A DNA stretch of 48,658 bases, taken from Limnochordia bacterium. GTDB taxonomy: Bacteria; Bacillota; Limnochordia; Darwinibacteriales; DTU012. The DNA is taken from positions 1-48,658 of the forward strand of contig SKJB01000017.1 of assembly GCA_007116145.1 (NCBI GenBank), in the 5' to 3' direction. This document shows positions 2,662 to 43,538 of the stretch, piece after piece. Every line of letters starts with the position of its first letter. Position 1 is the stretch's first letter. The notes beneath the pieces are model-generated. The model saw nothing but the letters and a program-made list of their open reading frames with translations. It was not told the DNA's origin and ran no database searches. A program made the translations under genes and the position numbers.

Positions 2662-3465
2662 ATGAAATTTAGACCATGCATCGATTTACATAACGGAAAA
2701 GTAAAGCAAATCATTGGTGGATCGTTAGATACAAGAAGTGATGGGCTTATTGAAAATTTTGTGTCTGATAAAGATGCGGCCTTTTATGGACAATTATATA
2801 AAGCTGATGGGTTAACGGGTGGCCACACTATAATGCTTGGACCAGGTAATGAACAGGAAGTACTGAAGGCTTTACAAGCCTACCCTGGAGGATTGCAGGT
2901 AGGTGGTGGAATCACGTCGGAAAATGCCAGTAAGTACTTAGATGCCGGAGCTTCTCATGTTATTGTTACTTCCTACGTTTTTAAAGATGGGCAGATCTAT
3001 CAGGATAATTTAGAGAGAATCGTATCGGAAGTTGGCATCCCTAACCTAGTATTGGATCTGAGTTGTCGGCAAAAAGGTGATAGTTATTTTGTTGTCACTG
3101 ATCGCTGGCAAAAGTTTACGAGTTGGGAGATAAACGCTTCCAATCTTGCAAGTTTAGCCCAGTATTGCAGTGAATTTTTGATTCACGCTGTAGATGTGGA
3201 AGGTAAGTGTAGTGGAGTCCAGGAAGATTTAATTACTAAATTAGGTGAGTGGTCGACGATTCCCACAACATATGCAGGAGGAGTTTCATCATTTGCTGAT
3301 CTTGGGTTAGTGAAAAGACTAGGTGCAGGCAAGCTTGATGTAACCATAGGCAGTGCTTTAGACATATTTGGGGGCTCCCTACCTTATAAAGAGGTAGTAC
3401 GGCTTTATGGTCGCGGTGAAACCACGGAATGGCAGAGTTTGATTAGAAGTAGACGGCAACACTAG
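2662..3465 (+). CDS. hisA: Phosphoribosylformimino-AICAR ribotide isomerase, eukaryote-like HisA
   Basis: The 267-residue product is a (beta/alpha)8 barrel isomerase of histidine biosynthesis, converting ProFAR to PRFAR in the cytoplasm. The N-terminus FRPCIDLHNGKVKQIIGG resembles fungal/plant HIS6 (CIDLHNG-VKQIVGG) rather than the usual bacterial HisA start (IPAIDLKDGK), and the catalytic Asp is in CIDLHNG. The second phosphate-binding half shows TYAGGVSSFADL and VTIGSALDIFGG. The ATG at 2662 follows a GTGAGG ribosome site. No other his gene is adjacent, so it is an orphan here; the remaining pathway genes must lie elsewhere if the pathway is complete. A terminator follows at once, so it appears monocistronic. 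Eukaryote-type HisA occurs in scattered bacteria, so old transfer is possible but not shown. Confidence 0.88.
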   Translation: MKFRPCIDLHNGKVKQIIGGSLDTRSDGLIENFVSDKDAAFYGQLYKADGLTGGHTIMLGPGNEQEVLKALQAYPGGLQVGGGITSENASKYLDAGASHVIVTSYVFKDGQIYQDNLERIVSEVGIPNLVLDLSCRQKGDSYFVVTDRWQKFTSWEINASNLASLAQYCSEFLIHAVDVEGKCSGVQEDLITKLGEWSTIPTTYAGGVSSFADLGLVKRLGAGKLDVTIGSALDIFGGSLPYKEVVRLYGRGETTEWQSLIRSRRQH

Positions 3466-3493
3466 AGATCACATTGTGTTCTCTCTTTTTTTA
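3464..3493 (+). terminator. Terminator after hisA
   Basis: An interrupted hairpin (AGAGA and CAC pairing with GTG and TCTCT around an ATT loop, one T-T mismatch) is followed by a run of seven T residues at about 3485-3492, directly behind the hisA stop codon. Confidence 0.7.
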
Positions 3494-3561
3494 TAGGACG
3501 GTCCTAGCGCAGAGCCATCAGTTGCGCTTTAGACAGACGTGAGCGAAAGGAGAATGAAGTG

Positions 3562-4266
3562 ATGATTGAACTAAAAAATGTCAGTACGTTTTATGGCGGA
3601 ACTGTTAAAGCGGTAAACTCGATTAGTCTACAAGTCTCTGATGGTGAAATATTTGGGCTTTTTGGACCTAACGGTGCTGGAAAAACCACAACGATTAAAA
3701 TGATGACAGGAATTCTAGTTCCTACTAGTGGGGATATTTCGGTTAATGGAGTTAGTATAAAGGAGGAGTCTGCAGAGGTCAAGCGGATGATCGGATTTGT
3801 ACCGGATGCACCCAATATGTTTCTCAGTCTAAAAGGAATTGAATATCTAAACTTTATGGCTGATATGTATGACGTTAGCTTATGTGATCGCAAAGAGCGG
3901 ATTGAAGTTCTAAGTAAACGACTTGAAATGAGTAGTGTGCTACGCGATCCAATCCAGAGTTATTCGCATGGAATGCGGAAAAAGATTGAGATTATTGGAG
4001 TTTTAGTGCATAATCCATCAGTTTGGATTATGGATGAACCCATGACTGGTTTGGACCCTCGATCGTCGTACCTTATTACAGAGATGATGCGAGAACATGT
4101 AAATGATCAGAAAACGGTGTTCATTTCAACCCAGTCACTGGATGTAGCCGAGAAGATCTGTGATCGGGTTGCGATTATCCATAATGGACAAATCGTATTC
4201 TGTGGCAATATAGATGAGCTGAAGGAGCATTTTCAAAAGCAAGAAGCGCGCAATTCCGTCTCTTAA
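3562..4266 (+). CDS. ABC transporter ATP-binding protein (lone ATPase subunit)
   Basis: The product is a complete 234-residue nucleotide-binding domain. It has Walker A GPNGAGKTT near residue 37, an ABC signature written SHGMRKK near residue 137, Walker B VWIMDEP near residue 157 and a switch-like STQSLD segment. It resembles the CcmA/NatA-type ATPases of ABC-2 exporters. The ATG at 3562 is preferred over the GTG at 3559 because AAGGAG at 3547-3552 is better spaced for it. No permease gene follows: the next gene, 82 nt downstream, is an oxidoreductase. Either the membrane partner is encoded elsewhere or the operon has lost it. The substrate cannot be inferred. Confidence 0.85.
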   Translation: MIELKNVSTFYGGTVKAVNSISLQVSDGEIFGLFGPNGAGKTTTIKMMTGILVPTSGDISVNGVSIKEESAEVKRMIGFVPDAPNMFLSLKGIEYLNFMADMYDVSLCDRKERIEVLSKRLEMSSVLRDPIQSYSHGMRKKIEIIGVLVHNPSVWIMDEPMTGLDPRSSYLITEMMREHVNDQKTVFISTQSLDVAEKICDRVAIIHNGQIVFCGNIDELKEHFQKQEARNSVS

Positions 4267-4348
4267 GGGTTATTTTTTCGATAATAAAAGGATAGTTATG
4301 GAGTTATGACTAATATGTATACAGCGGTACGAATTTAGGAGGGATTTT

Positions 4349-5422
4349 ATGGGTAATGGGAGTGTATTACGGGCAGGTGTTGTCGGAGTTGGAAATATAG
4401 GCCAAAAAACACATATTCCAGCTTATGTTAACTTACCAGACACACAGTTAGTGGCAGTATGCGATACAGACTCAGAGCGATTAGACACTATCGCAGAGAA
4501 ATATGGTATTGCTAAGGAATACCGATTTACTAATCATGAAGAGATGTATGCTAATGCTAATCTTGATGTTGTCAGTATTTGTACGCCTACATGGGCTCAT
4601 TTTGGACAAACAATTGCGGCCCTTAACAGTGGCATTCATGTTATGTGCGAAAAACCAATTGCTATGAGTACAGAAGAAACAGTTAGCATGGTCAAAGTGG
4701 CGAGAGAGAAAGACTTGTCTTTAGGTATTGGCTATAATAATCGGTTTTCCATAGAGTCGCAAACTCTCAAATCCTATATTGATGACGGTGTTCTAGGTGA
4801 ACTGTATTATGCTAAATGTGGATGGTTGCGTCGCCGTGGAAATCCTCATGGATGGTTTACGAAGAAAGAGTTATCAGGTGGAGGACCATTAATTGATTGC
4901 GGGGTTCACGCTCTAGATTTGGGTTGGTGGCTAATGGGTACGCCTCAGCCTGTGTCTGTATTAGCTTCCACGTACCAAAAGTTTGGAAACTACGACGTAG
5001 AGGGTATCGGTCAATATTGGGCTATGAGCGGTAATAAAGAAGGTGTATTCGATACAGAGGATCTAGCCACTGCGCTAATAAAATTTAGTGATGGGTCGAC
5101 GATTTTCTTTGATGTTAGTTGGGCACTTAATGGCGAAAACAGCTTTTATGCAGAAGTGTACGGTGATAAGGCCGGAGCCCAATGGAATCCCCTCAATATC
5201 TATGGTATGATCGGCAAAAATCTTGCAAATATCCAACCAGTTCTCAATCAAAATATTAACGCGCAAGAGGCAAAGATTGCCAATTTTATCGGTCACCTTT
5301 TTGGACGTGAACAGTTACTTTGTCCAGCTAGTGAGAGCGTAGCCATGTCTCAAATTGTTGATGCTATTTACGAGTCAGGTAGTACAGGAAAGGCTGTTAT
5401 CATTGAGCCATTACAGCTGTGA
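4349..5422 (+). CDS. Gfo/Idh/MocA-family NAD(P)-dependent oxidoreductase
   Basis: 357 residues, usual length for the family. The N-terminal Rossmann fold begins GVVGVGNIGQKTHIP; the family EKP motif appears as VMCEKPIAMS, carrying the catalytic Lys; the substrate-binding half contains GGPLIDCGVHALDLGWW with the conserved Asp and His. A TAGGAGGG ribosome site stands before the ATG. Enzymes of this family reduce or oxidise sugars, inositols and related polyols; the actual substrate is not deducible. A crotonase-family gene starts 44 nt downstream on the same strand and may be co-transcribed, but no shared pathway is evident. Confidence 0.85.
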   Translation: MGNGSVLRAGVVGVGNIGQKTHIPAYVNLPDTQLVAVCDTDSERLDTIAEKYGIAKEYRFTNHEEMYANANLDVVSICTPTWAHFGQTIAALNSGIHVMCEKPIAMSTEETVSMVKVAREKDLSLGIGYNNRFSIESQTLKSYIDDGVLGELYYAKCGWLRRRGNPHGWFTKKELSGGGPLIDCGVHALDLGWWLMGTPQPVSVLASTYQKFGNYDVEGIGQYWAMSGNKEGVFDTEDLATALIKFSDGSTIFFDVSWALNGENSFYAEVYGDKAGAQWNPLNIYGMIGKNLANIQPVLNQNINAQEAKIANFIGHLFGREQLLCPASESVAMSQIVDAIYESGSTGKAVIIEPLQL

Positions 5423-5465
5423 TGTCAAAATTAGGGATACAAATTGAGTTGTGGGAGGAATAGGA

Positions 5466-6266
5466 GTGAGCTATCATTCTATTGTACTAGAAAGAACAAA
5501 TCCTGTATGGATTATTAAGCTAAATTCCCCAGAAAATGAGAATAAGTTAACGATTTCTGGAATGCAGGAACTTACCTCTGTTTTTAAAGAAGCAGAAACG
5601 AGTCGCTCTTGTAAGGCAGTGGTGTTAGCAGCTGAGGGGGAGCTTTTTTGTGGCGGTGGAGCGCTTGGAGATTTTCGCCAGCAAGACTCTATGGCTATTG
5701 TTGAATTTTCCAAGAGTTTTATCGACCTACACACTACCATTTATGCTTTATCAAAACTGGTTATTGCTGCTGTTTGTGGTGAAGTAAAGGGTGGCGGGTT
5801 TAATTTAGTTGAAGTTTGTGATCTAGCGGTAGCTGCAGATAATGCAACCTTTGCCATTCCTGAGATTTTAGCAGGTTTAGCCCCAATGTTAGCTTTAGTA
5901 GGGGTAACGCAAGTATATCCACGCAAGAAAGTGATGGAACTTGCACTGCTTGGTGAATCCATTGACGCTAAAGAGGCGCAGAATATCGGTCTCGTAAATT
6001 GGGTCGTTAAGCAGGAGGATGTCTTAGCGAGTGCTTGCCAAGTAGCGCAGCGTTTAGCGGTGAAGAATCCAACAAGTATTAAGCTTTGTAAGAAACTGTA
6101 TGCGGATCTTAATCTGTCAGCCTATACACAGCACCTAGAAGTGGCTGCACCCTTACTGGTTACAATGCTAAAATCCAAAGATGCGCAGGAAGCACTAGAT
6201 GCTAAGGAGCAGCAGCGGGAGCCAGTGTGGTCTAACAGCGAATCAGATACGCAGGTTTTGTCATAA
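5466..6266 (+). CDS. Enoyl-CoA hydratase/isomerase (crotonase) family protein
   Basis: The product has the crotonase fold of about 266 residues. The oxyanion-hole segments are LFCGGGALGDF and GEVKGGGFNLVEVCDLAVA, and a likely catalytic Glu lies in IPEILAGLAP. The divergent FCGGG and GEVKGGG motifs recall the decarboxylase/dehydratase-type crotonases of polyketide beta-branching (PksI-like), but no polyketide synthase is nearby, so the reaction is left open. I place the start at GTG 5466, served by GGGAGGA at 5453-5459; the frame also opens at GTG 5451 inside that ribosome site. It lies 43 nt after the Gfo/Idh gene. Confidence 0.8.
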   Translation: MSYHSIVLERTNPVWIIKLNSPENENKLTISGMQELTSVFKEAETSRSCKAVVLAAEGELFCGGGALGDFRQQDSMAIVEFSKSFIDLHTTIYALSKLVIAAVCGEVKGGGFNLVEVCDLAVAADNATFAIPEILAGLAPMLALVGVTQVYPRKKVMELALLGESIDAKEAQNIGLVNWVVKQEDVLASACQVAQRLAVKNPTSIKLCKKLYADLNLSAYTQHLEVAAPLLVTMLKSKDAQEALDAKEQQREPVWSNSESDTQVLS

Positions 6267-6279
6267 CCAAACGAACAAG

Positions 6280-6306
6280 CACCAGGCACCTTATCTGGTG
6301 TTTTTT
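6280..6306 (+). terminator. Terminator after the crotonase gene
   Basis: CACCAG (6280-6285) pairs with CTGGTG (6295-6300) and is followed by six T residues (6301-6306). It overlaps the last codons of the convergent kinase gene, which ends at 6291. Confidence 0.75.
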
Positions 6307-7055
6307 CTTTGTTCCCAGTTGTCTAATGCCTGAATAAATTCGGTCGCTGATTGATATCTTAGTTTTGATTCTGTTTGCATGCCGCGGCCAAGTAGCGACT
6401 GTAATTGCTTATCTGGTAGTGAGAACGGACGAGACACAGAAGGAAGCGAACGCGTGATTAACCAATAACAAAGCCGCGCAACAGAATAGAGGTCTGAGGC
6501 GGGAGATAAGAGACATGGGGTTTGTTCTTGTTCCGGTGGGCGAAAATTGATGGTACCTCCGCGGCGTTTGGTCAGCCAGATACCCTTCGCATTTTTGCGT
6601 ACGGATCCACAGTAGTCAAGAATTTTCACTGTTTGTGGTTTATCGTTTTCGATCATGATATTATGATGGGCAATGTCAAAGTGAATAAAGCCGCATCTGT
6701 GTAGATGCTTAAGGCCTTCGAGTATTTGTCTTGTAATAGCTATGGCTAGCATTGGGTCTCTTACCGGTCCTCCTTTTGGACAATTGATTCTCTGTCCCTT
6801 AACCAATTCCATGACAATATAGGCTTGTTTATCCTGAACAAAGAAATCATAGAAACGAGGAAGACAAGGATGTTTTCCGTAGTCTTGCATGATCTCGGCC
6901 TCTTTTTCGGCGCGTTTTATTCTTCGACAAACTTTAATTGCAACAGGAATATCTCGAAGGACGTCAAATCCCTGGTACACACAGTTACTGGCTTTCGCAA
7001 GGGGTTCAATCATCACTTGATATTGGTGCCATTTTATCATCTTGTTCTCGTTCAT
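6291..7055 (-). CDS. Ser/Thr protein kinase-like protein with degenerate motifs
   Basis: A single eukaryotic-type kinase domain of about 254 residues with no transmembrane or PASTA segment. Conserved: VAIK lysine (residue 44 counting from the upstream GTG at 7064), an alpha-C Glu near 55-57, a hinge-like IVMELVKG, and an APE-like RPPEQ followed by SPASDLYSVA. Altered: the glycine-rich loop is not recognisable (EPLAKASNCVYQG); HRDxKxxN reads HFDIAHHN, keeping the Asp and Asn but losing the Arg and the catalytic-loop Lys; DFG reads DYCG. It could be weakly active, specialised or a pseudokinase. ATG at 7055 or GTG at 7064 could start it; neither has a strong ribosome site. It is divergent from the DUF3231 gene and convergent with the crotonase gene. 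Confidence 0.8.
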   Translation of the reverse strand: MNENKMIKWHQYQVMIEPLAKASNCVYQGFDVLRDIPVAIKVCRRIKRAEKEAEIMQDYGKHPCLPRFYDFFVQDKQAYIVMELVKGQRINCPKGGPVRDPMLAIAITRQILEGLKHLHRCGFIHFDIAHHNIMIENDKPQTVKILDYCGSVRKNAKGIWLTKRRGGTINFRPPEQEQTPCLLSPASDLYSVARLCYWLITRSLPSVSRPFSLPDKQLQSLLGRGMQTESKLRYQSATEFIQALDNWEQRKNTR

Positions 7056-7191
7056 CCGACTCACTTTCTTTACAGCCTGAGTGCCTTTGCTCTATTGTAT
7101 GCTGCAGTTCGCTTTTAATGCTTAGTAACAAAGGTGAGTTAGTGTATAGATTGTGTAAATTGTGAAAATCATAATTGATGAGGTGATCAAC

Positions 7192-7710
7192 ATGAAATTC
7201 ACTCGTATAGGTGAGAAAATTGGCTATTTGGGCAAAAAACCGAAGGAAAAAGCAGCTATGATATCCATTGGCGAGGCTTATTCTATCTGGACCACACTAG
7301 TCTACCGTTATGACGCTCTTATGACGACCAAGATCCTGGGTAGCTTTGTCAAGGATGAAGATCTGAAAAGAGTGGTTCAGCGCGGGTTAACGATTTTAGA
7401 GTCTCAGAGAGAGCAGCTTGAAGAGTTAGCTAAGGAGTTTAATATTCCTATGCCTGCTAGACCTCCTGAAAGTGCTAACGTTGCAGCTGATATCAGCACA
7501 CTTACAGATGAATTAATATATCGTGAAATCTATAGTGGTTTAGGAGATATGATGTTTAAGCATGTATCTAGTTTCCAACGGGCACATGGCTCTAGGATTC
7601 GCAAAGTTTTTCGCAATTTTATTGAAACAGAGATGGAGTTATATGATAGCTTTTATGAGTATGGCAAACTCAAAGCCTACCTAAACGAAACGCCTTCTTT
7701 TCGCTTATAG
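7192..7710 (+). CDS. DUF3231 family protein (ferritin-like, spore-coat-associated type)
   Basis: 172 residues, mostly helical, with GEAYSIWTTLVYRYDAL and the repeated helix-rich second half ending near the Phe-rich SSFQRAHGSRIRKVFRNF. This is the pattern of DUF3231, a ferritin-like four-helix family related to CotF-type coat proteins in spore formers. Many family members are two-domain proteins of about 330 residues; this is the single-domain length. ATG 7192 is chosen over GTG 7162 because a GAGGTG site stands 6 nt upstream. It is monocistronic, with an inverted repeat right behind it. No iron-binding residues can be assigned with confidence. Confidence 0.7.
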   Translation: MKFTRIGEKIGYLGKKPKEKAAMISIGEAYSIWTTLVYRYDALMTTKILGSFVKDEDLKRVVQRGLTILESQREQLEELAKEFNIPMPARPPESANVAADISTLTDELIYREIYSGLGDMMFKHVSSFQRAHGSRIRKVFRNFIETEMELYDSFYEYGKLKAYLNETPSFRL

Positions 7711-13376: not shown

Positions 13377-14234
13377 GTGAATAGCGTGATACAAATTGGT
13401 AAAACCCACACTTTGCAGGTGATAAGAAAAACTGGCATTGGCGTGTATCTTAATCTACAAGATGCTAAAGCGCCAGATGATATTTTGTTGCCGAAAAATC
13501 AAGTGCCGCGAGAAATAGAAGTCGGCGATGCGATTGAAGTATTTGTTTATAAGAATGCTGAGGATGTAACCATAGCTACAGTTCGCAAACCGATGCTGAC
13601 ATTAGATGAGCCAGGACCAGGACTTTTGGAAGTGGTTGATATGACAGAGTTTGGTGCGTTCTTAAACTGGGGTTTAGAGAAGGATTTACTATTACCTCTA
13701 AGTGAACAGATAGGCACAGTTAAGCAAGGGGATTCATGTTTAGTGGGGTTATATCTCGATGAGGTGACGCAAAGATTATGTGCATCAATGTATATATATG
13801 ATTTGCTAAGTACTGAATCACCATATAACCAGAATGATAGTGCCAACGGAACCGTGTACACAATAAACGATGAGATTGGAGTCTTTGTAGCTGTAGATAA
13901 TAAGTATCATGGGCTGATTCTTAACAAAGAACTGTATGGCAAGTATTCAATAGGTGACAATGTTGAAGTACGAATAAAAAAAGTGAGAGATGATGGTAAG
14001 TTGGAATTAAGCACGAGAAAACCGGCTTACGTTGCCATAGAGAGTGATTCGCAAAAGATTATGGAGCGGTTGAAATTGTGTGAGGGTAATCTTCTTCTCA
14101 ATGATAAGAGTTCTCCAGCGCAGATAAAGGCAGAGTTAAATCTAAGTAAAGGTGCCTTTAAAAGGGCCGTTGGTAGACTTTTACGAGAAGGTGCGATTAA
14201 GATCACGGAGGATGGTATTACGTTGAATTGGTAA
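13377..14234 (+). CDS. cvfB: CvfB-like S1-domain RNA-binding protein
   Basis: 285 residues with the CvfB/YitL layout: tandem S1-type OB folds (an N-terminal one with GIGVYLNLQDA and PDDILLPKNQVP; a second with LEVVDMTEFGAFLNWG and KDLLLPLSEQ; a third with NDEIGVFVAVDNKYHGLI) and a C-terminal winged helix (SSPAQIKAELNLSKGAFKRAVGRL kept here only as a description of residues about 245-270). Such proteins bind RNA and affect virulence or stress gene expression in Firmicutes. The GTG start follows the J-protein stop without a gap, so it belongs to the chaperone operon. Hairpins and a T-run terminator follow. Confidence 0.82.
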   Translation: MNSVIQIGKTHTLQVIRKTGIGVYLNLQDAKAPDDILLPKNQVPREIEVGDAIEVFVYKNAEDVTIATVRKPMLTLDEPGPGLLEVVDMTEFGAFLNWGLEKDLLLPLSEQIGTVKQGDSCLVGLYLDEVTQRLCASMYIYDLLSTESPYNQNDSANGTVYTINDEIGVFVAVDNKYHGLILNKELYGKYSIGDNVEVRIKKVRDDGKLELSTRKPAYVAIESDSQKIMERLKLCEGNLLLNDKSSPAQIKAELNLSKGAFKRAVGRLLREGAIKITEDGITLNW

Positions 14235-39581: not shown

Positions 39582-40494
39582 TTGTTTCACGAGTACATTA
39601 TAGCAGATAATGGACGCCCTAATTTTCCGGTAAACATTCTGCTCTCCTTAGAGTTTATCAAGCACTTGAAGAATTACACAGACGAGGAATTGATAGAGCA
39701 ATTTCACTTTAATTATCAGATTATGTACGCTGTCGGCATTCGTAACCTAGGAGATATACCCTTGGCTCATCGCACACTTTATGAGTTCCGCGAGCGTGTA
39801 TTAAACTATACAGTTAGCCATCCCGACCAAGCAGATCTACTGTTTTCAAAGTTTCAACCATTAACAAATCACTTTCTAACCGAGGCAAAACTTAGTACTA
39901 ATGAGCAGCGTGTGGATTCTACGCATATAATGCCGAACATAAAGGTTGCTGGCCGGCTGTCCATTGCCTACGATGTATTGCGACAAGCCATCAGCGATTG
40001 CCCTCTAGAAATCCTGCCTCAGGATATTCAGGACGTTTTAAAACCTGAGTATAATACGGAGACAAAGACATGGGTAGCCAAGCCGAATAAAGACATCCAA
40101 GCAACGAGCTTACAATCAGCTTACGATCCCGACGCTACGTTTCGGAACAAGGCAGGCAAGATACACAGTGGATATGTCTTAAATCTAGCGGAGACCTGTA
40201 ATGATGACAACCCTGTGCAACTGATCACCGATTATTCGCTAGAAGATAACGGCGCATATGATGCCCATATACTACATAAACGTTTGACAGTGATGAAAGA
40301 GCTGAATCCAGAACTAAAGGATGTATACGTGGATGGTGCTTATATGTAGTTTGGTAGCTGGTTTAAAAGTAATTGGTCATAATATTCGTCAGTTTATTCG
40401 GTTCTGCAAACAAGACTTCCGCCGAGGGTTCGACCCAGAAAAGCGTAAAAGTCAACCCCAAGGGGTTAGTGCGCCTATTTCAGCAAATTGTTGA
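39582..40494 (+). pseudogene. IS1182-like transposase remnant
   Basis: The open frame 39582-40349 encodes about 255 residues of a DDE transposase: NGRPNFPVNILLSLEFIK, the LTDEELIEQF-like segment, QRVDSTHIMPNIK with the first Asp, and VYVDGAYM with the second. It lacks the N-terminus (its TTG is only where the surviving frame opens) and stops just after the second Asp. In the next frame, 40351-40494, a C-terminal piece continues (LVAGLKVIGHNIRQF), so the segment carrying the catalytic Glu has been lost at about 40350. Inactive. Confidence 0.8.
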
Positions 40495-40670
40495 GAAAAC
40501 AGGTTAGATAATAGGTGGAAATGCGCTAGATATATGATGCCTAAACGGAAATGGCTACTAATAAACCCAAGAAAAGTGATCACGATAAATTTTGGAGCTA
40601 TTTTTGGGGTTACATGCATAATTTAGTTGCGTTTCAGCAGTGGAATCATAGGTTATAGGGGATAAAATGC

Positions 40671-40700
40671 TTGACAAAATGATCATGTAACATATATAAT
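40671..40700 (+). promoter_or_regulatory. Consensus-like promoter upstream of the double-glycine peptide
   Basis: TTGACA (40671-40676) and TATAAT (40695-40700) both match the sigma-A consensus fully, with an 18-nt spacer. Transcription should begin near 40707, some 400 nt before the first good coding start (41106). Confidence 0.8.
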
Positions 40701-41105
40701 ACAAATAAATCTAAAGATACAAACAAATCAAACAAGCATAAATGCAAATTAAATAATAGGCATTTTCATTAGTAAGACAAGAATTAGTGTTAACTAATCG
40801 TATTTAGTGTGATAGGTAGACTTATTGCTGTAGCTAGTGCCATGCTTAATTAACACGGCATGGGGCAGGCACTAGCTACCATATATATTGGGAGCAAGCA
40901 GAGGAGAGGTTCAGAATATCTCTCGACTGACGTTAATACAAGTATCATCAAGTTCAATTGTTCTTGTCAAATTGTAGTAGCATCACATCATGTGCTAGAG
41001 ATCGTCTGCTGCGCTAGCAGTTGATAGATGACTAATGACTCTGAGACGTCGACTATCATGGTTTTTAGTCGCCCTATAAATCGAAAAAAAGAAAGGGTTG
41101 ATGTA
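40701..41105 (+). other. Long structured 5' leader with several hairpins
   Basis: No open frame with a ribosome site occurs here. Inverted repeats include GTAGCTAGTGCC (40830-40841) with GGCACTAGCTAC (40868-40879), a perfect 12-bp stem containing an inner CCATGC/GCATGG stem; GAGAG/CTCTC (40904-40924); CACA/TGTG extended by TAG/CTA (40978-40997); and CTGCT/AGCAG (41006-41020). It resembles a regulatory leader or an independent RNA. It matches no riboswitch consensus I know. Confidence 0.55.
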
Positions 41106-41369
41106 ATGAATTTTAACGGATCATTATTTACTGACATGAACACAAAGGAGCTGCAGACTGCCAATGGAGGTGGTCCTGTAAGTATAATTGTAAGCTTTGC
41201 GATAGGTCTTATAGCTAGTGAAGTAGTAAATGAAGTTGTTGAAAGATCAACAGGTCAAGATATAAGAGATTGGGTTTCTAATGGAATGGATTCACTAGTC
41301 AACTCCAATTACGATGGGTCAAAAAATAGTTCCGAAACAAGCTATCTCCCTGGACGATGGGCAAATTGA
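41106..41369 (+). CDS. Double-glycine leader peptide (candidate bacteriocin or signal peptide)
   Basis: 87 residues. The first 22 (ending MNTKELQTANGG) fit the double-glycine leader pattern, with Glu-Leu at -8/-7 and Gly-Gly at -2/-1, cleaved by C39 peptidases during export. The predicted 65-residue mature part has a hydrophobic helix (PVSIIVSFAIGLIASEVV), then a polar, Asn/Ser-rich tail ending LPGRWAN. There is no Cys, so no lanthionine or disulfide. The start at ATG 41106 has a GAAAGGG site 9 nt upstream; the frame is open from 41028, but no earlier start is supported. It follows a strong promoter and a structured leader. No C39 transporter, immunity protein or modification enzyme is recognisable within the window, so secretion would rely on a distant exporter. 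Confidence 0.6.
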   Translation: MNFNGSLFTDMNTKELQTANGGGPVSIIVSFAIGLIASEVVNEVVERSTGQDIRDWVSNGMDSLVNSNYDGSKNSSETSYLPGRWAN

Positions 41370-41437
41370 GTGAAACTTACAATGTCCATGTAATGTCTTT
41401 AGTCTTTCTGAAGGTTTCACACTAAGTTGTCACCAAA

Positions 41438-41469
41438 TTACCAAGGGGTGCTAAGAAACCCCTTGGTAA
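41438..41469 (+). terminator. Inverted repeat behind the double-glycine peptide gene
   Basis: TTACCAAGGGGT (41438-41449) and ACCCCTTGGTAA (41458-41469) pair perfectly over 12 bp around an 8-nt loop. There is no T-run, so it may be a weak or partial terminator that still allows the next small gene to be transcribed. Confidence 0.55.
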
Positions 41470-41612
41470 GGTACTAATAGGATTATGATGCCCTTTGAGT
41501 AAAAATGCACTAGGTTACTCTCTTCTAGAAACTAATCTGTTTTTATTTTTCTTAATGTGAAAAACTGTGAGCTAAAGAAAGAGAGCGAGAGACTATAGAG
41601 GGAGGTAAGTGT

Positions 41613-41702
41613 ATGTCAAGTATTCATTTTAACTGGAAGCACATGTTTATTGGTTTCATTTTAGGTTTTCTCACCAATATACTGTATAAGATGCTTCGTT
41701 AA
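41613..41702 (+). CDS. 29-residue single-span membrane peptide
   Basis: Starts MSSIHFNWKHMFIGF and ends TNILYKMLR; the centre (FIGFILGFLTNIL) is a transmembrane-length hydrophobic stretch flanked by Lys/His before and Lys/Arg after. The ATG is preceded by a very strong site, GGGAGGT, at optimal distance. It lies about 240 nt after the double-glycine peptide. An immunity peptide, an export accessory or a type I toxin-like peptide are all possible; nothing in sequence decides between them. Confidence 0.55.
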   Translation: MSSIHFNWKHMFIGFILGFLTNILYKMLR

Positions 41703-42337
41703 TTGTGCTATTCAAGGACTTTTTGGAGGTAAATTAAAGAAAATGTCCTGACACTTAGGATGGTGTTCCCGCCTCTTCGCTTTGGAGCTACGATCCCCTT
41801 AGGTTATGGCTTTTAAGACATGTTTCTACCAAGGTACAAGGGTGTGTTAGTATACATGCCTTTTGTACAGTCGTTTTTGCGTAACCTAGATTTTTCTCCA
41901 AAGACTATCGCTATATCAGGCAATCTAGCTTCTGCTTATCAAGACTATCGATTTAGAGACCTTTTAATGAAGTTCAAGAAATGTATCAAATTTGGAGCTT
42001 AGTCTCTCATTTGTGGTAGTATGTTTGTGGGAGATGACGTAATGAAAAATAACTACTTTGCCAAATTAGTGATTCCACTGCATAAAATCCTTTACATCAG
42101 TTCATCCATATGTAGTAGCCACGCTCATAGCTGCATCCGATATCTAGTGCCATATGAACTAAAAAGTAGGTTTTCGCACAATTCTGCCACTCCAAAACTA
42201 GCTGTTACCTTGATACTCTTACCGCTAATAATAGATAGGGACCCTCGTATCGGGGCCACTGCAAATTTCTAGCGGTGGACTAAGGCAAATCAGATTGTTT
42301 AAATATAGTGCATACCTTGATTTATTGCTAAAAATAT
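41703..42337. other. Gene-poor stretch, no supportable gene
   Basis: 635 nt. Open frames at 41820-42002 (60 codons) and 42042-42272 (from an ATG with a GGGAG site 8 nt upstream, product beginning MKNNYFAKLVIPLHKILY) are seen. Neither resembles a known family, and codon usage does not persuade me; the second is the better candidate for a small gene. I see no repeats or IS ends. Confidence 0.3.
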
Positions 42338-42416
42338 GGCAACATAATAACGAACAAGAGTTCTGCTAATTGCATAATTTATTATGGTTGCCAGCTGCGA
42401 TAATTCTAGGTATAAT
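42338..42416 (+). promoter_or_regulatory. Promoter and inverted repeat upstream of the Rpn remnant
   Basis: TTGCCA (42388-42393) and TATAAT (42411-42416) are spaced by 17 nt. GGCAACATAATA (42338-42349) and TATTATGGTTGCC (42380-42392) form a near-perfect inverted repeat (one bulged base) whose right arm covers the -35, so it may be an operator. Confidence 0.6.
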
Positions 42417-42430
42417 TAGGGGTGAATTAG

Positions 42431-42949
42431 GTGTTGCATTTAGTTGGAGACGAATCGGGGAAATACAACAGATACAATCAGCATGATAGAGGATACAAGA
42501 ATCTATTGTCTTCGAAGCAAACCTTTAGACAACTAGTAATGGGATTCATTCCGGAACAATGGGCTCAAAGTTTGGACGAATCATCCATTATATTGATCAA
42601 TAAATCTTTTGTTTCGCATACCATGAGGGAGAAAGAATCCGATCTACTATATTGCATCCACTTAGATAGTCAGGAAATTATTTTCTATATGTTATTGGAG
42701 CTGCAACGAGAACAGATTTTGGAAGTATTAGATGAATGCGAGGAGGTCGAGACTATGTTGGGCAACTTAGGTCGAGTAATCAGCGAGGGATATCAAAAGG
42801 CAAGAAACGAAGGTGCAATTCAAGGCAAAGCCGAACTGATTGCTAATATGCTAGAAAAAGGTCTTAGCGCAACCGATGTCAGCGAGCTTACTGGTTTAGA
42901 TGAGAAAACGTTACAAGAATTGCTAGGAATTCTTGATTCGAGCCATTAA
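42431..42949 (+). CDS. Internally deleted Rpn-family (YhgA-like) nuclease
   Basis: 172 residues versus about 300 for complete Rpn/PDDEXK proteins. The N-terminal half keeps HDRGYKNLLSSKQTFRQLV, the catalytic-region Asp in KESDLLYCIHL and the ExQ of FYMLLELQ; then the frame jumps straight to the C-terminal helix REQILEVLDECEEVETML and the repeat-like QGKAELIANMLEKGLSATDV. About 120 central residues are missing in register near 42715. GTG 42431 with a GGGGTG site about 6 nt upstream is used. DNA-cleaving function after the deletion is doubtful. Confidence 0.75.
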   Translation: MLHLVGDESGKYNRYNQHDRGYKNLLSSKQTFRQLVMGFIPEQWAQSLDESSIILINKSFVSHTMREKESDLLYCIHLDSQEIIFYMLLELQREQILEVLDECEEVETMLGNLGRVISEGYQKARNEGAIQGKAELIANMLEKGLSATDVSELTGLDEKTLQELLGILDSSH

Positions 42950-43186
42950 TACGCCGCACAAGTATTTATTAATTGCCGCAGCGGGATAATCTCTAATCTC
43001 TAATCGCTTAGCTGCCAAGACTTACATCACCTGATACACAAACTAACTATGGCTACCTCAAGATGCAATTGCTGTGTGTCTCACCATCTCATGATCTATG
43101 TAATCCAAGTAGCCATATTTTCGCCGGTGCATTTCCTTTTTTTGGTTATATACTAGGACTTTTTGAACAGGCTCTTAGACTAAAAA

Positions 43187-43217
43187 GACTCGACTATTAT
43201 CTTTGTCGGGTCTTTTT
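43187..43217. terminator. Bidirectional terminator at the end of the MNT gene
   Basis: GACTCGAC (43187-43194) pairs with GTCGGGTC (43205-43212) including one G-T pair. Five A residues precede and five T residues follow, so there is a T-run on both strands. It overlaps the last codons of the minus-strand nucleotidyltransferase gene. Confidence 0.8.
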
Positions 43218-43538
43218 ACCATTAACATTAAGACTAGAAGTGTATATTTCTACTCCATACTGATCAATATGATCTTTTAACGCTTGATTTTGGATCAAGG
43301 AATAGACTACAATATCAAAATAATAGGGTAGTGGGAGTTCTTCGTTAAGTTGTGTACTTATTCTCAAGCGAATTTCCTCGGTTAACTTAGCGCCATACAG
43401 TACTAAATCAATATCAGATCCGTTCTTATAATTCCCTAAGGAGCGACTACCAAATATGTCTGCACTCTCTACTTCGTCAACGGTAGACAAAATCTCTTTA
43501 ATTTGAAATTTGGTGTTAATGGATAGGCCACAATTCAT
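43197..43538 (-). CDS. mntA: MNT-type nucleotidyltransferase antitoxin (MntA-like)
   Basis: 113 residues, minimal nucleotidyltransferase fold. The motif GSRSLGNYKNGSDIDLVLY fits GS-x10-DxD (G30-S31, D42, D44), so the metal-binding Asps are intact. It starts within the HEPN gene's stop region with a 4-nt overlap. In characterised pairs, MntA AMPylates the HEPN toxin to silence it. The C-terminal LNVNGKKTRQR is encoded over the terminator hairpin. Confidence 0.88.
   Translation of the reverse strand: MNCGLSINTKFQIKEILSTVDEVESADIFGSRSLGNYKNGSDIDLVLYGAKLTEEIRLRISTQLNEELPLPYYFDIVVYSLIQNQALKDHIDQYGVEIYTSSLNVNGKKTRQR

Follow-up and report, generated by a model that had tools for sequence, protein, structure and literature searches.

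A double-glycine peptide gene of a Limnochordia bacterium shares an upstream element with a C39 exporter operon on another contig

The peptide gene and its surroundings

The window, by which we mean the whole analysed stretch of 48,658 nt, is contig C50 of the 2.76-Mb, 164-contig genome of a Limnochordia bacterium, and a small peptide gene with the surrounding features listed in Table 1 lies on it. As proposed in the initial annotation of this DNA, the open reading frame encodes 87 residues, of which the first 22 form a leader whose residues 15-22 read ELQTANGG, and the predicted mature part contains no cysteine (leader / mature part, MNFNGSLFTDMNTKELQTANGG / GPVSIIVSFAIGLIASEVVNEVVERSTGQDIRDWVSNGMDSLVNSNYDGSKNSSETSYLPGRWAN). 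Leaders of double-glycine (GG) peptides carry hydrophobic residues at positions -4, -7, -12 and -15 before the GlyGly (PMC7018657), and in the window peptide these positions are occupied by A19, L16, M11 and F8. No other ORF of the window showed this pattern, for which 0.25 occurrences are expected per dinucleotide-shuffled window. The predicted mature peptide has a net charge of -4 (K and R minus D and E). Fold prediction from the single sequence gave three helices (residues 24-36, 39-49 and 53-67), which carry little weight because the mean pLDDT was 56, and a search of solved structures with the window peptide returned chance-level matches only.

Table 1. Features of the peptide locus, with positions in the window
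Feature	Position	Strand	Basis
Candidate distal consensus promoter, TTGACA-18-TATAAT	40671..40700	+	12/12 match; only one in window, 0.05 expected in shuffles
Hairpin of 17 base pairs; sole leader piece beyond chance among those tested	40830..40879	+	-26.4 kcal/mol, z -4.0
Element common with the C68 exporter operon; probably an operator or activator site	41022..41068	+	85% identity, E 9e-7, near-equal distance from start codon
Candidate proximal -10 hexamer TATAAA	41075..41080	+	16 nt after CTATCA; TATTAT in C68 copy
Ribosome binding site GAAAGGG	41091..41097	+	sequence; 8 nt before ATG
Gene for 87-aa double-glycine peptide precursor	41106..41369	+	ORF; top rank among 1036 window ORFs with a family profile that excluded it
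22-residue leader ending GlyGly, F/M/L/A at -15/-12/-7/-4	41106..41171	+	sequence; rule in PMC7018657
Predicted mature peptide, 65 aa, with TGQ core	41172..41366	+	sequence; family profile
Strong hairpin 3' of the gene (12-bp stem without a T run), perhaps a 3' end or processing site	41438..41469	+	41430-41485 folds at -23 kcal/mol, z -4.1
29-aa ORF MSSIHFNWKHMFIGFILGFLTNILYKMLR with GGGAGG site; weak candidate partner or immunity peptide	41613..41702	+	no Pfam match

A truncated IS1182-type transposase ORF (39582-40349) ends ~320 nt before the distal promoter, and a shortened Rpn/YhgA-like nuclease gene (42431-42949) follows the peptide gene, so that the gene sits in a stretch of mobile-element remnants. 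No immunity gene was recognisable beside it, the 29-aa ORF being the only, and weak, candidate. Neither a histidine kinase nor a regulator gene was found in the stretches read around the peptide gene or in the part examined of contig C68, which holds the exporter operon described below.

Upstream of the gene, the initial annotation had placed a full-consensus promoter followed by a structured 400-nt leader with at least four hairpins. The promoter sequence is there, matching at all 12 consensus positions. The 398 nt between it and the ATG fold better than shuffles overall (z -2.9) and include one strong hairpin (40830-40879), but the other pieces tested, 40708-40823, 40885-41030 and 40958-41105, folded like shuffles (z -0.08, -0.17 and -0.51, respectively), so four hairpins are unsupported beyond chance and the description of the leader as structured was overstated. 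The case for a regulated leader is correspondingly weak, with most of this stretch folding no better than shuffles and the part in common with the exporter operon looking rather like a DNA element. A search of the leader against Rfam found no family at the gathering score and chance-level matches only, and a search for homologous leaders found none in 40 relatives and, besides the match on C68, again nothing above chance. Repeated matches of 23-26 nt at one spot of the leader were set aside, since they come from apparently protein-coding sequence in other genomes.

A C39 exporter operon on contig C68 and a common upstream element

The peptide had been described as lacking a linked exporter, which agrees with our finding a C39 exporter operon on a different contig. 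When the whole genome (assembly ~97% complete) was searched with Peptidase_C39, two places were found: a remnant on contig C4 and a full-length gene on the minus strand of contig C68 (L032; E 1.8e-41). Even with its C39 part left out, the C68 exporter scored 550.7 bits on TIGR01193, whose cut-off is 523.9. No other full-length C39 exporter was found in the genome, although one could be missing from the ~97% complete assembly. The operon runs from a gene for a bacteriocin-like GG peptide, through genes for a 66-aa membrane protein and the C39-ABC exporter, to one for an HlyD protein.

Two oddities were observed on C68. The bacteriocin-like gene (9621-9369, minus strand) reads MASTLFLSDVAFANLSDDEMQLTEGG... 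and, after its GG leader, passes by an apparent frameshift into ...GIAGGVAGFLSAAAKGAKLGACLGPKGAFGGAVLAVTAYSAMAVVNYYW. In the exporter ORF (~8969, minus strand) the conserved start KRYYCIKQHDITDCG is not preceded by an ATG, GTG or TTG codon, though an ATT would fit. These may be assembly errors near the contig end or signs of a damaged operon. The C39 remnant on C4 (L034, 2861-2679, minus strand) stays open for only 60 aa; it lies downstream of genes for a GG peptide (ELEAIDGG; mature part with four cysteines) and a CPBP protein, and adjoins transposase and integrase genes.

Searching the genome with the peptide gene and its leader gave a single match besides the gene itself, a 47-nt element (Table 1) whose second copy lies directly before the bacteriocin-like gene at the head of the C68 exporter operon. 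The reverse search gave E 2e-7. The element core TGAGACGTCGACTATCA (41042-41058) occurs nowhere else in the genome with up to two mismatches allowed, and it was found once in the species-genome collection, on a deltaproteobacterial contig, and not at all in viral contigs. The distance from the end of the element to the ATG is 37 nt for the window gene and 41 nt for the C68 gene. In both copies a -10-like hexamer lies 16 nt downstream of CTATCA, and in the window gene this proximal promoter-like arrangement spans 41022-41080. Contig C68 ends ~130 nt before its peptide gene, and the upstream comparison is limited to that stretch.

In neither copy is the folding of the element better than chance, and in the C68 copy a stop codon stands directly before the ATG of the bacteriocin-like gene; RNA structure and an N-terminal extension are thus both poor explanations of its conservation. 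That stop, in a copy that nevertheless keeps the element, together with the fit of the ribosome binding site to position 41106, also disfavours an in-frame upstream ATG at 41028, which would give a product of 113 aa. To judge from the sequence of the two known copies, the element probably belongs to a proximal promoter, as its operator or activator box.

Sister peptides and relatives in other genomes

Four sister GG peptides are encoded in the host genome, on contigs C21, C4, C117 and C54, and after each of their genes comes one resembling a membrane protease gene. A first profile, made from the window peptide and the C21 and C4 peptides, found those on C117 and C54 as well as weaker ones in genomes of the same order. 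The C21 and C54 peptide genes are followed by genes for DUF3267 proteins, and those on C4 and C117 by genes for CPBP (Rce1-like) proteins; a CPBP protein gene likewise comes after that of a relative in another genome (G002). CPBP neighbours are known at bacteriocin loci, as Abi/CPBP immunity proteins. At two of these loci, on C54 (L049, 3551-4114) and C21 (L033, 5564-6133), the DUF3267 genes encode HELIH / HEFIH.

With a profile of sisters and relatives from which the window peptide was left out, the window peptide ranked first of the 1036 window ORFs, with E 1e-6 for the whole precursor and E 0.05 for the mature part alone. A mature-part profile of eight of the relatives described in this section, again leaving out the window peptide, placed it first of the 1036 at E 6e-12, the next ORF having 0.8. 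The mature pattern of the family is a hydrophobic helix, T-G-[QK], and then often an E/D-W helix. This TG[QK] core is absent from Pfam and NCBIfam. The window peptide itself scored 13.2 bits against PF10439 (Bacteriocin_IIc), below the curated cut-off of 27.1, and had no NCBIfam match. A weak TIGR03949 match on contig C2 of the host was rejected, since it is no GG peptide and has flagellar genes as neighbours.

The search for homologues brought up relatives with the same kind of GG leader, and a wider genome sample added those in G220 and G384. The G220 peptide is the closest relative, with 40% identity to the window peptide over 47 aa, and its gene comes directly after a C39-ABC gene and an HlyD gene and before those for an ABC permease and an ABC ATPase; the G384 relative also lies behind an HlyD gene. 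The window peptide had initially been called undescribed and unlike known class II bacteriocins. The former holds insofar as it belongs to no Pfam or NCBIfam family; the latter does not stand, since related GG peptides do occur in exporter operons. In a genome of the same order (L051; G011, contig C19), the stretch 2977-7341 holds a C39-ABC gene, an HlyD gene and, after them, an ORF of 350 aa whose product by eye resembles a TolC-type outer-membrane factor; two neighbouring GG peptides come further on (13520-14016), as if for export across two membranes.

The same core was also found in proteins with signal-peptide-like N-termini, a Sec signal call judged by eye. A 126-aa protein with the TGQ core (WP_070415974.1, IAIFVVGILAGYIVDGVIIYATGQPSAEWIARGM) is carried by 16 plasmids from Enterococcus and one from Lactococcus, and 14 of these 17 are predicted to be conjugative. 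It is nearly identical across these plasmids (L071, 3830-4207), one of which is named for optrA, and is annotated as hypothetical. A 142-aa protein in G127 adjoins ABC permease and ATPase genes, and one of 158 aa in G322 adjoins a gene for a 70-aa hydrophobic protein. Sequence similarity suggests that the core is homologous across both export types; shared helix composition could partly explain this similarity, but would hardly account for the T-G and W positions. A tblastn search with the window peptide had no match in plasmids and phages, and the species-genome collection held no close relatives. The first single-protein matches, in G031 and G005, were discarded, one lying inside a 685-aa frame and one containing stops.

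Interpretation and comparison with known systems

The window peptide has the sequence features that define GG peptides, and a C39-peptidase ABC exporter is encoded in the same genome. We conclude that its ORF is a genuine gene, whose small product is probably secreted and probably kills bacteria. The initial suggestion of a bacteriocin or signal peptide lacking a linked exporter is thus supported, both by the exporter found on C68 and by homologues with GG leaders of the same kind. Several established systems offer points of comparison. Like the class II bacteriocins with a double-glycine leader (PF10439, Bacteriocin_IIc; TIGR03949, the lactobin A/cerein 7B family), it joins a C39-type GG leader to a small hydrophobic mature peptide, and two of its relatives score near or over these models; the models lack the TG[QK] core, however, and the window peptide differs from them also in its net negative charge. 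The streptococcal GG peptides (NlmTE mutacins and ComAB/BlpAB substrates) likewise have genes away from a common exporter and a common promoter element, with ComE/BlpR sites and substrates common to the exporters. The window peptide belongs to another family, and no direct-repeat ComE/BlpR site was recognised. The enterococcal plasmid protein WP_070415974.1 has the same mature core but a signal-peptide-like N-terminus and no adjoining exporter gene.

A resemblance to TMcin lies in the hydrophobic helix of the mature peptide and in the DUF3267 (TmcP family) genes that follow the C21 and C54 sister genes. The mature TMcin peptide has two conserved cysteines that form a disulfide (PMC12328743), and its leader protease TmcP is a DUF3267 protein (PMC13252029). 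We rejected membership in this group since the window peptide has no cysteine pair; it also has a GG leader rather than one cut by TmcP, and neither tmcP (DUF3267) nor tmcBC was found among the ORFs around 40300-43500. Since DUF3267 stands for a protease in TMcin, the DUF3267 proteins beside the sister genes may serve either in immunity or in maturation.

The reading that we favour, with moderate confidence, is that the window peptide is a bacteriocin-like peptide of class II (unmodified, with a GG leader) whose gene is unlinked to the C68 exporter but regulated together with it. The exporter would serve the peptide in trans, and the peptide would kill by acting on membranes. The 87-aa precursor would be cut after GlyGly by the C39 peptidase of the C68 ABC exporter, working with its HlyD partner, and exported as the 65-aa peptide. 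This peptide would consist of a membrane-seeking hydrophobic helix, the conserved T-G-[Q/K] turn and another helix, which is amphipathic, and the hydrophobic helix would act on the membranes of related bacteria and kill competitors. Through the common element a single regulator may control both the peptide gene and the exporter operon, and the exporter would then be present when the peptide is made. We count in favour of this reading the leader pattern, the mature-part profile, the exporter linkage of the G220 and G384 relatives, the CPBP and DUF3267 neighbours of the sister genes, the sole full-length C39 exporter and the 47-nt element. Doubt comes from the lack of any immunity-like neighbour other than the 29-aa ORF, from a net charge unusual for a class II bacteriocin, and from the C68 frameshift and odd exporter start, which may point to a damaged operon or to an assembly error; the occurrence of the element in two copies only also counts against it.

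It is unlikely that the product is a secreted signal (pheromone) or community peptide that uses the same C39 transporter and is sensed by kin or self, with the element as response site: 65 aa is long for a pheromone, the stretches read around the gene and on C68 hold no histidine kinase or regulator gene, and the CPBP and DUF3267 neighbours of the sister genes are as at bacteriocin loci. Such a role would suit the acidic mature peptide, the absence of an adjoining immunity gene and the sharing of the element with the exporter operon, and pheromone, biofilm and colonisation roles of GG peptides are described (PMC7018657). The mobile-element remnants on either side of the gene, the missing immunity gene, the broken frame of the C68 bacteriocin-like gene and the reduction of the second C39 gene on C4 to a remnant are what would be expected of a decaying relic, that is, a once active bacteriocin gene stranded between IS remnants, its immunity gene lost and its product no longer made or exported. 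We regard this as quite improbable, however, given an intact ORF with a ribosome site, leader and conserved core, and a control element that has been kept. A cis-regulatory RNA leader, a new riboswitch-like element controlling the peptide, would account for the long distance from the consensus promoter, the folding of the whole stretch and its one strong hairpin; with the rest folding like shuffles, no Rfam match, no homologous leader in the 40 relatives and a conserved stretch that is not a conserved structure, we consider it very improbable.

Beyond the single gene, and more tentatively than for the bacteriocin-like reading, we suggest that the TG[QK] core may define a new and widespread family of secreted peptides that act on membranes and switch between export routes. 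Some lineages would carry the mature helix-turn-helix behind GG leaders and use C39 exporters, and others would carry the same one behind the signal-peptide-like N-termini seen on enterococcal plasmids and beside ABC transporter genes, with varying partners (CPBP, DUF3267, an ABC pair or a small hydrophobic protein). Where one genome has several scattered copies, these would use one exporter, at least one of them tied to it by a promoter element. The family is new to the two libraries, while the GG-leader kind of peptide is already known. Its core would be missed by genome mining around exporters alone. The association of the sister genes with CPBP and DUF3267 genes offers a direct test of whether these encode immunity proteins or maturation proteases for the core. 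For the window gene itself, what was an orphan ORF can now be tested as one half of a pair, the other half being a specific exporter encoded on a different contig and connected with the peptide by a common control element.
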